Both the position numbers and the translations under genes were made by a program. DNA of 18,094 nt from Candidatus Coatesiibacteriota bacterium (lineage in GTDB: Bacteria; RBG-13-66-14; B26-G2; JAUVZD01), in assembly GCA_030602715.1 (NCBI GenBank), contig JAUVZD010000016.1, positions 1 to 18,094 of the forward strand, given 5' to 3'. The notes beneath the pieces were generated by a model. It made no database searches. It saw only the letters and a list, made by a program, of their open reading frames with translations, and was not told where the DNA came from. Shown piece by piece: positions 4,007 to 9,716 of the stretch. How positions within the stretch are numbered: position 1 is the first letter of the stretch; every line of letters begins with the position of its first letter.

Positions 4007-4065
4007 GGGGAAAAAGCCTTGATGATTGACTACCTATAAAATTTGATTAATAGAAGGAGATGATT

Positions 4066-4527
4066 ATGTTTCGGAAAACATTACTGGTACTATCCGCTTT
4101 AACGCTGTTGTTCGGAGTTGCTTTTTCTGAAACTGAGGAATTGCAACCTGAGAAGGATGCAGGCATCTTTGAAGGTACACCTACAGGTCAATACGGTTCA
4201 ATGGATTTCTGCTGGATAGGCTACGACTCTGGACGATGCGATACACTTATTCACTTCCCACTGGATGATTACATCGGGGTTGAGTTGTATAGTGCAACAC
4301 TAGAAGTATATGTTTTTCACTTCTGGGGAACTATACCCAGCGATAACTGGATGGCACGGGTGGCTGACGATTGGGTGGAGACCATCGTCTGCTGGTAATA
4401 CACCCCCGGCTGGGACGACGGGATAGTATTGGATTTCGGTCCACCCACCCGGACAAACACCGACCAGATTGCCGACCCCCACTGGATATTCCCCGGTCAG
4501 GTGTTTGTCATTCCCCCCGCTCCTTAA
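4066..4527 (+). pseudogene. Decayed secreted DNRLRE-domain protein with LysM-like tail
   Basis: Reading starts at the ATG at 4066 (AAGGAG 6 nt upstream). A clear signal peptide (MFRKTLLVLSALTLLFGVAFS) is followed by a region matching the DNRLRE extracellular domain: DAGIFEGTPTGQYGS, DTLIHFPLDDYIG, SATLEVYVF, VADDWVETIVCW. A TAA stop at 4396-4398 falls where that domain normally continues. The same frame then stays open for 42 codons to 4527 and encodes TNTDQIADPHWIFPGQVFVIP, which resembles the second half of a LysM repeat (usually 'I-DPHWIYPGQVLVIP'). The simplest reading is a nonsense change plus a deletion that joined pieces of a longer secreted protein. Alternatively the 110-residue product up to the TAA is still made. 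A terminator follows immediately. Confidence 0.6.
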
Positions 4528-4853: not shown

Positions 4854-6074
4854 ATGGGCAAACCCTCTGGAAAGGATGCACAGAAAAAAGAAATCCTAAA
4901 ACAGGTCATCAAGGAACTCCATCAGGGCGCAGAACCCGAAAAGGTAAAAGAGAGATTCAAAGAGGTGATCGCGGACACCACACCGATCGAACTCGCCCAC
5001 ATAGAGGAGGAACTGATAAAAGAGGGAATACCTCAAGAGGAGATCCACAGGCTTTGCGATATTCACCTGGCGGTATTTGAGGAATCGCTTGAAAGGGAGA
5101 AAGCGCAAGCACCACCGGGACACCCCATCCATATACTCACCGAGGAACACAAAATGGTCCTGAACTTCGCCGATGGGTTACAGGATGTCGCCAAGGAGAT
5201 AAAGAGGGCGGGCGATTATGAATCCGCCGGTGAGCAGATGAGACAATTGGACCATGCGGTAAAACATTTCAAGGAATCGGAAAGTCATTACCTACGGGAG
5301 GAGAACGTCCTCTTCCCATATCTTGAGAAACACGGAATAACCCAGCCCCCGGCGATTATGTGGATAGAGCACGACAAGATAAGGGAGATGGAGAAGGGTC
5401 TATATGAGCTCATTGATGCACACAAAAGCATAGAATTTAAGGACTTCGTAAAGCAACTGGAGGAAACTTCACTAGCCTTGGCGGAGATGCTGGCAAGCCA
5501 CTTTCCCAAGGAGAACAACATCCTCTTCCCCTCCGCTCTGAAGGTCATCGGTGAGGATGAATTTAAGGAGATAAGGCACCAATTTGATGAAATCGGCTAC
5601 TGCTGCTTCACCCCCAAACCGGCAACGATAAGCGGCGAGGAATACGAGGAACAAACTACCAAGCACGAAGTAGTGGACCAGGTTTCCTTCCCCACCGGCT
5701 CATTATCAAAAGAGGAGCTGAAAGCCATCTTCAACTCTCTGCCGGTGGATATCACCTTCGTTGGTGCCGACGACACCGTCCGCTTCTTCAGCGAGAGCAA
5801 GGAGAGGATCTTTGTCAGAACTAAAGCGATTATCGGCAGAGAAGTCCAGAAGTGCCATCCCCAAAAGAGCATCCATGTGGTGGAAGGGATACTGGAGGAT
5901 TTCAAATCCGGCAAGAAAGATGTTGCCGAGTTCTGGCTTAATCTTGAGGGCAGGTTAATCTATATCCGCTACTTCCCGGTTCGCAGCGAAGACGGGAGTT
6001 ATCTGGGATGCCTGGAGGTATCCCAGGACACAACCGATATAAAGAAGATTGAAGGTGAGAAGAGACTGCTTTAA
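4854..6074 (+). CDS. DUF438-hemerythrin-PAS protein
   Basis: This 406-residue soluble protein has the three-part architecture of DUF438 proteins from anaerobes: a helical DUF438 region (about 12-80), a hemerythrin-like HHE domain (about 90-240) and a C-terminal PAS domain (about 285-400). Candidate diiron ligands are His99 (EEHK), His145 and Glu149/150 (SHYLREENVLFPYLEKH), His173 (IEHD), and His216 and Glu220 (SHFPKENNILFP). The PAS region contains GREVQKCHPQKSIHVVE and FWLNLEGRLIYIRYF, typical of this subfamily. Such proteins are thought to sense or buffer oxygen, NO or redox state, but the exact function is unsettled. There is no membrane segment and no output domain, so any signal would pass through protein contacts. 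AGGAGG stands 6 nt before the ATG. cutA follows 51 bp downstream and may be cotranscribed. Confidence 0.88.
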   Translation: MGKPSGKDAQKKEILKQVIKELHQGAEPEKVKERFKEVIADTTPIELAHIEEELIKEGIPQEEIHRLCDIHLAVFEESLEREKAQAPPGHPIHILTEEHKMVLNFADGLQDVAKEIKRAGDYESAGEQMRQLDHAVKHFKESESHYLREENVLFPYLEKHGITQPPAIMWIEHDKIREMEKGLYELIDAHKSIEFKDFVKQLEETSLALAEMLASHFPKENNILFPSALKVIGEDEFKEIRHQFDEIGYCCFTPKPATISGEEYEEQTTKHEVVDQVSFPTGSLSKEELKAIFNSLPVDITFVGADDTVRFFSESKERIFVRTKAIIGREVQKCHPQKSIHVVEGILEDFKSGKKDVAEFWLNLEGRLIYIRYFPVRSEDGSYLGCLEVSQDTTDIKKIEGEKRLL

Positions 6075-6125: not shown

Positions 6126-6452
6126 ATGACCGAGGAATATATCCAGGTCTCCACCACCACCGAGAAAAAAGAGGACGCCGAAAAGATTGCCCGGGCACTG
6201 GTGGAGAGAAGGCTTGCCGCATGCACCCAGATAGTGGGACCGATAGAGAGCACCTATTGGTGGAAGGGCAATGTGGAGAGGGCGGAAGAATGGCTCTGCA
6301 CAATCAAGAGCAGTAGAAGCCTCTACGCCCAAGTTGAGCGGGAGATAAGCCGGCTTCACCCTTACCAGACGCCCCAGATAATCGCCACCCCCATCGTCTG
6401 CGGGAGCGAGGACTACTTAAAGTGGCTTTCAGACGAGCTTGCGCAGGAGTAG
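6126..6452 (+). CDS. cutA: CutA divalent-cation tolerance protein
   Basis: This 108-residue protein matches CutA1 along its full length: the N-terminal QVSTTTEKKEDAEKIARALVE, RRLAACTQIVGPIESTYWWKG (29-49), EEWLCTIKSS, and HPYQTPQIIATPIVCGSEDYLKWL near the end. CutA proteins are small ferredoxin-fold trimers. They are linked genetically to copper tolerance in E. coli, though the biochemical role is unclear. The aromatic and charged residues conserved at the trimer surface (YWWKG, HPYQTP) are intact. The ribosome binding site before the ATG is weak (GGGTG). It lies downstream of the hemerythrin gene and upstream of a glutaredoxin/YHS/copper-ATPase operon, so a metal-handling role fits its neighbours. 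Confidence 0.95.
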   Translation: MTEEYIQVSTTTEKKEDAEKIARALVERRLAACTQIVGPIESTYWWKGNVERAEEWLCTIKSSRSLYAQVEREISRLHPYQTPQIIATPIVCGSEDYLKWLSDELAQE

Positions 6453-6611
6453 AGTCAGAGTTCCAGGACCGAATGAAAAGACAAAGGTTGAGCTTATCCT
6501 CTCAACTCAATCACCACCACTGCCAGCAAAACCTTTTCCGGGATTCTTTCAAGCCCCGCAAATGTTAATATAGATATGATTTTGAATGGCAAAAAACCAG
6601 AGGAGAAATCT

Positions 6612-6857
6612 ATGACTAACCCCAGCATAACCATCTACTCCGGCGCCACCTGAGCGGACTGCCAAGCGGCAAAGGGTTTCTTTGCCGCCCACAACCTTCC
6701 CTTTACCGACAAGCCGGTGGAGGAGGAAGCCAACCTGAACGAACTGCAGGAGAAGTTCGGACGCCTAGCCACCCCGACCATCATCATAGACGACGAGGTC
6801 ATCGTCGGCTTCCAGGACAATATTGAACAGATCTCCGCTCTAATCCATCACCATTAA
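6612..6857 (+). CDS. Selenocysteine-containing glutaredoxin-like protein (UxxC)
   Basis: The reading frame from the ATG at 6612 (GAGGAG 6 nt upstream) is open to the TAA at 6855-6857 except for one TGA at 6651-6653. Read through, it gives 81 residues with the glutaredoxin/thioredoxin fold pattern: SITIYSGAT, then Sec14-Ala-Asp-Cys17, QAAKGFFAAHNLPF, RLATPTIIIDDEVIVGF with the cis-Pro motif TPT, and a C-terminal helix ending in three histidines. The TGA falls exactly at the nucleophilic cysteine of the CxxC site, and a SECIS-like hairpin follows at the correct distance. Family knowledge says Sec-for-Cys replacement at this position occurs in bacterial glutaredoxins and thioredoxins. The role is probably thiol-disulfide or metal-related reduction in the cytoplasm. 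It heads an operon with a YHS protein and CopA. A conventional caller would miss it or start downstream of the TGA. Confidence 0.88.
6651..6688 (+). promoter_or_regulatory. Bacterial SECIS element with its UGA codon
   Basis: The TGA (6651-6653) is followed after 12 nt by a perfect 9-bp stem (6666-6674 GCGGCAAAG with 6680-6688 CTTTGCCGC). The 5-nt apical loop GGTTT begins 21 nt after the TGA. This fits the bacterial SECIS model: a stem-loop just downstream of the UGA with G in the first apical-loop positions. It should direct SelB-dependent selenocysteine insertion. Confidence 0.85.
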
Positions 6858-6873: not shown

Positions 6874-7041
6874 ATGCCCTGCGGTAAAGAGACTCACGAG
6901 CATATAGACCCGGTATGCAAAATGAAAGTTGAACACACCGACGACGCTGTTCACAGCGAATACGAGGGAGAGGTCTATCTCTTCTGCTGCCAAACTTGTA
7001 AGGATGAGTTTGACAAAGACCCCACAAAATATCTGGAATGA
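6874..7041 (+). CDS. YHS-domain metal-binding protein, 55 residues
   Basis: This small gene encodes a stand-alone YHS domain: [38 protein letters not shown]. The conserved cysteines (DPVC, FCC, TC) are expected to bind a transition metal; YHS domains occur alone or fused to copper/heavy-metal ATPases. An extra N-terminal [10 protein letters not shown] adds a cysteine and two histidines. The start at 6874 has AAGGAG 6 nt upstream, and the stop TGA (7039-7041) overlaps the CopA start (ATGA), so the two are translationally coupled. CopA begins with a second, similar YHS domain, so this protein may be a separate copy of that metal-loading module. A role as metal chaperone to the ATPase is an inference. 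Confidence 0.9.
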
Positions 7042-9716
7042 GCTCTAAAAAGCCCGCATCGGAAGAGCCGGTCACCATTGACCCGGTATGCGGGATGACC
7101 GTAGAGCCGGGGAGGGAAGCCGCCCGAAGCGTCTATGCGGGCAAGACCTACCTCTTCTGCTCAACCGCCTGCAAGCAAAAGTTTGACGCCGACCCTAAGA
7201 CCTACCTGCGCCCAAAAGAGGAAGCACAGAAGTCTGCGGACCATCCGACTAAGACAGCCCCCACTTTGAATGCCACTCAACGCCTCACCTTCACCGTTCT
7301 GGGGATGACCTGCGCCTCCTGCGTGAAGAAGATAGAGGGGACTGTGGGGGCTATGAAGGGCGTCCTCAGAGCGGAGGTTAACTTCGCCTCCGAGACGCTC
7401 TCCGTGGACTTTATTCCCCCCAAAACCACCTTGCAGGACATCATCGCCACGATAGAGTCCCTGGATTACCAGGTGCCCGTCGGCAAGATGGACCTGCCGG
7501 TGGGGGGGATGACTTGCGCCTCCTGCGTAAAAGCCATTGAGGACGCCCTGAGCGCCCTGCCGGGCGTGGTGGAAGCGTCCGCCAACTTCGCCAGCGAAAG
7601 GGTCACAGTAAGTATCCTTTCCGGCACGGTGGGGATAAAGGAGATAAAAAAGGCTGTTGAAGGTGCCGGTTACACCCTCCTCTCCACAAAGCTCGGTGAG
7701 GAAGCGGAAGATGAGGAGCAGGCTCTTCGCAAAAGAAGCTACCATACACTACGGCGCCGTTTCCTCGTCTCCGCAGTCCTCACCATCCCCATCCTCCTGC
7801 TCACCTTCTCCAAATTTCTGCCCGTTCTATCCAACATCCCCCGAACCCCCATCTCCTATCTCCTCTTCGCATTGACCGCACCGGTGCTCTTCTACTGCGG
7901 ACTGCAGTTCTTCGTCGGTGCCTGGGCAAAGCTCAAGCGCGCCGGCGCGGACATGAACACCCTGGTGGCGGTGGGCACCGCCTCAGCCTTTCTATACAGC
8001 ACCATAGCCACCTTCTACCCCGCCTTCTTCACCGCCATCGGTCAAAGCCCCGCCCTCTATTTCGACACCACAGCGGTGATCATCACCCTCATCCTGCTGG
8101 GACGCCTGCTGGAAGCCCGCGCCAAGGGAAAAGCTACCGAGGCAATCAAGAAGTTGGCCGGGCTGGCGGCTAGGACCGCCCGGGTGCTCAGAGACGACAA
8201 GGAGGTGGCGGTGGCGGTTGAGGATGTTCTGGTGGGGGACATAATAATCGTGCGCCCGGGAGAGAAGGTGCCCGTTGACGGGGTCATGGTTGAGGGTTAT
8301 AGCGCCGTTGACCAATCAATGCTCACCGGCGAGCCTCTTCCAGTGGAGAAGAAGGTTGGTGATGATATTATCGGCGCCACAATCAACAAGACCGGCACCT
8401 TCCGCTTTCGGGCTACCAAGGTCGGCAGGGAGACCGCTCTGGCACAGATAATCAAGCTGGTGGCTGAGGCTCAGGGGAGTAAAGCCCCGGTTCAGCGCTT
8501 GGTGGACCGCATCGCCGCCGTCTTCGTCCCCCTAGTAATCGCCTCAGCCATCATAACCCTCATGGTGTGGCTCATCGCCGGTCCCTCCCCCAGCCTGACC
8601 TATGCCCTGGTCAACTTCGTCGCCGTGCTAATCATCGCCTGCCCCTGCGCCCTGGGCTTGGCAACTCCCACGGCAATCATCGTGGGCACCGGACGGGGGG
8701 CGCAGTTGGGCATACTCATCAAGGACGCCCAAGCTCTGGAGCGCAGTGCTTCCCTTAATACGGTGGTGATGGACAAGACCGGCACCCTGACCAGGGGCGA
8801 GCCCATCATAAGCGACATGGTCCCCGCCGAGGGTGAGGATAAGACTTCAGTTCTCACCCTTGCCGCCGCCCTGGAGCACGGCTCCGAACACCCTCTGGGA
8901 GAGGCGGTGATGCGCAGGGCGGAGAAGCAGGGCCTGGATTTCCCCACAGCGGAGAATTTCTCAGCCCTGGAAGGGATGGGGGTAAGAGGGGAAGTGGAGG
9001 GCAGGACTTGCCACCTGGGAAACGAACGACTGATGGTTTCACTGGGCATAGATATAGCCCCCCTGAAGGCGACTGCGGAGAAACTCCACAATGAAGGCAA
9101 GACGGTATTCTATCTCGCTTCCGGTGAAAAGCTGGTCGGATTGCTTTCGGCAAGCGACACCGTGAAGGAGAGTGCAAGCCCCACGGTCGCCCGGCTCAAG
9201 GAGATGGGCATGGAGGTGATAATGCTTACCGGGGACAATCCCCGAAGCGCCGGGGCGGTGGCTTCCAAGCTGGGCATCGGGCGGGTGCTTGCCGAGGTCC
9301 TGCCGGCGGACAAAGCCCAGGTGATAGCCGACCTGCAGGGCGAAGGGCGAGTAGTAGCTATGGTTGGCGACGGGATAAACGACGCCATAGCCCTGGCACA
9401 GGCTGATGTGGGCATAGCCCTGGGGAGCGGGACCGACATTGCCCGGGAGGCGAGCGAGATAACCATAGTAGGGGACAACCTCAGCGGGGTCCCCAACGCC
9501 GTGGCTCTCTCCCGGCGGACGATGGCAACCATCAAGGGCAATCTCTTCTGGGCTTTCATCTACAACATCATCGGCATCCCCATCGCCGCCGGTCTGCTCT
9601 ATCCCTTCATAGGTCTCCTGCTTAACCCCATGATAGCCGCCGGCGCAATGGCGGCGAGCTCGGTCTTCGTGGTCACCAATAGTCTGAGATTGCGGAGATT
9701 CAAAGGTGTAAGATAA
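7038..9716 (+). CDS. copA: Copper-exporting P1B-type ATPase with YHS and two HMA domains
   Basis: This 892-residue membrane pump has, in order, a YHS domain (about 12-57), two heavy-metal-associated domains with the Cu-binding motifs GMTCASC (89-95 and 157-163), membrane helices, and a complete P-type ATPase core. The core shows TGEP (430-433), the transmembrane metal site CPC (535-537), DKTGT with phosphorylated Asp579, SEHPLG with His618, and GDGIND (777-782). Tyr842-Asn843 and the MxxSS motif (871-875) in the last two helices indicate Cu(I)-ATPase (P1B-1) specificity. The likely role is ATP-driven Cu(I) export. The usual GDGINDAPA reads GDGINDAIA here. The start ATG overlaps the upstream YHS stop. 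It is last in the Sec-glutaredoxin/YHS/copA operon and ends 21 bp before a strong terminator. Confidence 0.95.

Follow-up and report, generated by a model that had tools for sequence, protein, structure and literature searches.

The stretch between positions 6612 and 6857 of the forward strand of the 18,094-nt DNA analysed here (hereafter, the window, at its full length) almost certainly encodes a selenocysteine-containing glutaredoxin, a confidence that concerns the identity of the protein as a Sec-glutaredoxin, not its substrates, and that derives from the comparison of sequences. Translated with TGA as U, the frame reads MTNPSITIYSGAT-U-ADCQAAKGFFAAHNLPFTDKPVEEEANLNELQEKFGRLATPTIIIDDEVIVGFQDNIEQISALIHHH, the TGA of codon 14 being its sole internal stop, and in the resulting active site, T-U-A-D-C, this codon takes the place of the first of the two Cys in the glutaredoxin motif CxxC. 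The original prediction had described here a start with a good Shine-Dalgarno site, the TGA at codon 14, a cis-Pro motif and a TAA closing a product of 81 residues, and this anatomy proved to be correct, the Shine-Dalgarno site being GAGGAG and the start the ATG at 6612 (Table 1). It had also foreseen that standard annotation would lose the gene, and the frame is indeed missing from the mechanically produced list of open reading frames of the window. The gene is real and easily missed, a concrete example of a gene broken by ordinary gene calling, and it joins the known Sec-glutaredoxin family as a divergent addition, within a lineage in which nearly all relatives carry SelB (above cut-off in 14 of the 15 genomes of the close-relative set).

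Table 1. Features of the window and selenocysteine machinery of the host genome.
Feature	Position	Strand	Evidence or score
CutA1, upstream neighbour (gap ~160 nt; operon membership unsure)	6126..6452	+	PF03091, 123.6 bits
Shine-Dalgarno site GAGGAG	6600..6605	+	read from sequence; 6-nt spacer to ATG 6612
Sec-glutaredoxin gene (predicted), 81 residues plus TAA (6855-6857)	6612..6857	+	translation with TGA as U; PF00462; PDB 7c10
UGA as predicted Sec, residue 14, first position of UxxC	6651..6653	+	alignment to the catalytic Cys, or the TGA, in homologues
Resolving Cys17 of UxxC (putative), codon TGC	6660..6662	+	invariant in alignment A1
SECIS hairpin (predicted), 9-bp stem, loop GGUUU 6675-6679	6666..6688	+	fits bSECIS model; counterparts in 9/9 TGA homologues
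cis-Pro codon, Pro55	6774..6776	+	invariant in alignment A1
Stand-alone YHS-domain protein, 55 aa	6874..7041	+	PF04945, 60.2 bits; sequence
YHS-HMA-HMA P1B ATPase, copper-type, ACPCA motif	7038..9716	+	TIGR01511, 603.6 bits, over cut-off
selA	C3:335792-336874		396 bits
tRNA-Sec (selC), anticodon UCA	C3:336968-337061		71.3 bits
selB	C3:338074-339957		317.8 bits
selD	C11:106248-107171 (G000, L019)		355.9 bits

At the protein level, the Pfam profile PF00462 (Glutaredoxin) recognizes the product with 37.2 bits, above its curated cut-off of 22.9, and in the PDB it matches best the glutaredoxin 7c10 (54.2 bits, residues 5-81), whose CxxC is aligned on U14-C17; the last few residues matched in 7c10 are probably its His tag, set against the natural HHH of the window protein. 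The entries 7c10, 7c12 and 7c13, the best solved match, in which the deposited chain has Cys where the window has U, we take to be Cys forms of the Sec-glutaredoxin of Alkaliphilus oremlandii. Residues U14, C17, P55 and G66-F67 are all invariant in alignment A1, so that the C/U-x-x-C/S active site and the cis-Pro loop are both present. None of the NCBIfam subfamily models scored above its cut-off for the window protein: the best, TIGR02196 (GlrX_YruB), reached 55.8 against 88.55 bits, and NF041212, the model of the Uxx-star family of glutaredoxin-like (seleno)proteins, gave 34.1 bits for residues 6-68, where its cut-off lies at 66. Sec-containing glutaredoxins (Grx, PF00462, UxxC) figure in a list of prokaryotic selenoproteins (PMC13188914), and ten such sequences come from the Sargasso Sea (PMC1088965); with this known family the window gene shares the Grx profile, the predicted Sec in first place of UxxC and a predicted SECIS right after the UGA, but it is divergent, and its operon-like context includes the genes of a YHS protein and of a Cu ATPase.

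The original prediction depended on the presence of selA, selB, selC and selD, and all four were found in the same host genome (2,313,722 bases, 2.31 Mb, estimated to be 100% complete), the first three grouped inside 4.2 kb (C3:335792-339957) and selD on C11. The host SelD is a predicted selenoprotein too, with an in-frame TGA in AAG-U-AAKLE, at the usual Sec site, which is given as UxxK for Sec-SelD in PMC13188914. That UGA could have been reassigned in the host, or be read through as Trp or Cys, would account for an intact gene with an in-frame TGA, but this is so improbable that it can be rejected, firstly, because the YHS gene ends normally in TGA (7039-7041), in agreement with the earlier statement that TGA serves as a normal stop in the window, and secondly, because the genome contains a tRNA-Sec with a UCA anticodon together with selA, selB and selD, the other in-frame TGA examined being the known Sec site of SelD.

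Downstream of the TGA, the perfect 9-bp hairpin with a GG-starting loop that had been described was verified in its arms (6666-6674 and 6680-6688, 100% complementary) and in its loop, GGTTT; the stem lies 12 nt and the loop 21 nt from the TGA, and the folding energy is -14.3 to -15.3 kcal/mol. The bacterial SECIS model sets a series of constraints (PMC13188914): (i) a loop of 3-9 nt; (ii) a stem of 4-16 bp; (iii) a G in the first two positions of the loop; (iv) a distance from UGA to loop of 16-37 nt; (v) and finally, a minimum free energy of at most -7.5 kcal/mol; the window hairpin satisfies them all. Taken alone, however, the hairpin exceeds chance only modestly and is suggestive, not extreme given the peptide: synonymous-codon resampling of the same peptide yields an equally stable hairpin in 254 of 5000 trials (5%), equal stability is found at 10 of the 3123 codon positions of the window genes (0.3%), and, against dinucleotide shuffles, z is -3.0 for the 31-nt core but weakens to between -1.3 and -1.8 when 45-47 nt are considered. 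It goes beyond chance because the TGA falls on the catalytic Cys and because TGA and hairpin are conserved across phyla. Rfam, at gathering thresholds, has no match anywhere in the window, and therefore the SECIS assignment relies on the constraints of the model and on comparison.

A protein search over 98 genomes gave 27 matches, and close TGA-containing homologues are found in three unrelated genomes (G061, G086 and G044), with the TGA at the same codon and a hairpin loop of the same type. As had been anticipated for residue 14, the homologues carry either Cys or Sec there, and the frame in the window is free of other disabling mutations. When homologues are picked by protein alone, a hairpin accompanies 9 of the 9 TGA forms, at -6.4 to -14.3 kcal/mol, two of them (-6.4 and -7.2) falling short of the -7.5 kcal/mol limit beyond rounding error; the 24 Cys forms average -1.7 kcal/mol, and 15 of them have no hairpin. 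The difference in energy corresponds to a Mann-Whitney p of 1.2e-5 (9 vs 24, some of the TGA forms being near relatives), in a comparison that is small because the phylum of G086 was represented by only 3 genomes, and p-values here and in the covariation tests are too strong because the sequences are related.

On a wider scale, the species genomes were scanned for the DNA pattern UGA-N6-UGY-N8/9-AAAGRGUUYCUUU, and from the genome and viral scans at least 111 loci were retained in which a glutaredoxin-like frame continues past the TGA, a few of them being ArsC/Spx-like or ended by a contig edge. This set, with the same type of loop, adds at least about 110 TGA-containing glutaredoxin-like frames to the homologues above, from many phyla, the listed loci including Bacillota, Chloroflexota, Rokuibacteriota, Acidobacteriota, Pseudomonadota and others. 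The outer stem pairs, which the search pattern leaves unconstrained, covary: with kinship ignored, pair 2 is formed in 81% of the loci vs 60% in shuffles (reached by 0 of 2000), and pair 3 in 67% vs 59% (reached by 1 of 2000). Pair 1 is C-G in the window and G-C in nearly all the other loci listed. The same hairpin pattern and a TGA also appear in three frames that look to be of the ArsC/Spx type (L049, L134 and L139; WSK-U-TACRKAKEFLLQKK), a different family of the thioredoxin fold.

The nearest relative among the matches listed belongs to Dethiobacter sp. CROMO_A_105 (L122, Bacillota), with 50% identity over 74 columns, and the fork that joins it to the window gene has a support of 100/98 in a tree of few columns and many weak forks. 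The two genes share the TGA and a hairpin that lies one base closer to the UGA than in the other pattern matches listed, but differ in their gene neighbourhood. After the TGA, 33 of 66 residues are kept between them, and the differences at codon positions 1, 2 and 3 number 28, 20 and 40, a comparison in which the downstream frame is constrained at the level of protein. The contig itself is, to judge from its KBL gene, native to its lineage: this gene is 85% identical within the taxonomic order and 73-75% identical in most genomes of the class. A contamination of the bin was considered, and this neighbouring gene shows the kinship expected of a native contig.

A search of 13 further genomes from the phylum gave no match, so that no close orthologue is available there, and this, together with the one in-frame stop, is what could be adduced for a pseudogene, that is, a Cys glutaredoxin whose TGC or TGT mutated to TGA and whose product ends after 13 residues. 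Such an origin is very unlikely and was rejected, since the genome has the machinery to read UGA as Sec and a further in-frame TGA in its SelD, since the TGA is located at the single residue where Sec is useful, since the rest of the frame is intact and conserved as protein past the TGA, and since TGA and hairpin are found together in relatives. The original reading, a glutaredoxin with Sec at the nucleophilic position, is in turn supported by the sel machinery and the homologues.

If the biology of Sec and of the glutaredoxin family applies here, the ribosome would pause at the UGA at 6651, SelB charged with Sec-tRNA(Sec) would bind the hairpin just 3′ of it, and Sec would be placed at residue 14, creating the active site U-A-D-C. 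The selenolate would then act as the attacking nucleophile of thiol-disulfide exchange, and Cys17 would resolve the selenenylsulfide. The likely substrates, more speculatively, could be the thiols of the adjacent metal-handling proteins, such as the cysteines of YHS, of HMA and of the CPC of the Cu ATPase.

The gene context is what makes the case mildly new: a Sec-glutaredoxin in an operon-like cluster that also encodes a YHS protein and a P1B ATPase of the Cu(I) type, in which the TGA stop of the YHS gene overlaps the start of the ATPase (7038), itself composed, according to Pfam, of a PF04945 and two PF00403 stretches. A P-type ATPase is present in 11 of the 111 listed Sec-glutaredoxin loci, always on the same strand and mostly with the ACPCA motif, a proportion that led us to reject a family-wide synteny rule. 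In Chloroflexota, one locus (L132) has the Sec-glutaredoxin beside a YHS-fused Cu ATPase of the type seen in the window, and another (L131) has a small YHS gene directly after it. In five loci of Bacillus type (L077, L085, L093, L103 and L114), a Sec-glutaredoxin-like gene, with TRPT-U-TDCQAGKEFLS as an example sequence, lies about 0.3-1 kb from a copper-type P1B ATPase on the same strand. The ATPase motif was found in none of 23 loci with Cys glutaredoxins (71 kb) and none of 25 other loci (82 kb), against 6 Sec loci at comparable radius, the control being small and several of the positives being related Bacillus-type genomes. For these reasons, selenolate-based thiol-disulfide exchange is retained as the proposed mechanism, and the copper-handling proteins as its possible clients.

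A role of the Sec-glutaredoxin in copper handling may be envisaged from this context. That it serves Cu(I) P1B ATPases and YHS metal-binding proteins as a dedicated partner, recurring in several phyla, is a doubtful though possible extension; if true, copper export would include a redox or metal-relay step based on selenium. The link with Cu ATPases across several phyla provides a testable idea of why a small redoxin uses selenium. Somewhat less probable still, and rather unlikely, is that the protein uses its selenolate and thiolate mainly to bind or transfer a soft metal, Cu(I) or another, instead of reducing disulfides, a reading that competes on function only and leaves the Sec identity untouched. 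The adjoining YHS protein and P1B-1 ATPase would fit it, as would the same-strand P-type ATPases of the 11 loci (that of L132 bearing a YHS domain) and the suggestion of a review that Sec acts as a metal ligand in the related UXX-star proteins (PMC13188914); however, most of the listed Sec-glutaredoxin loci have no ATPase nearby, the nearest relative (L122) among them, and UxxC with cis-Pro is a general redox active site.

Further upstream in the window, CutA1 is preceded by a DUF438-hemerythrin-PAS protein (4854-6074), and a short ORF of 112 aa (4060-4398), with a signal-like start and an early end, may encode a secreted protein in truncated form or be a further case of an interrupted frame.
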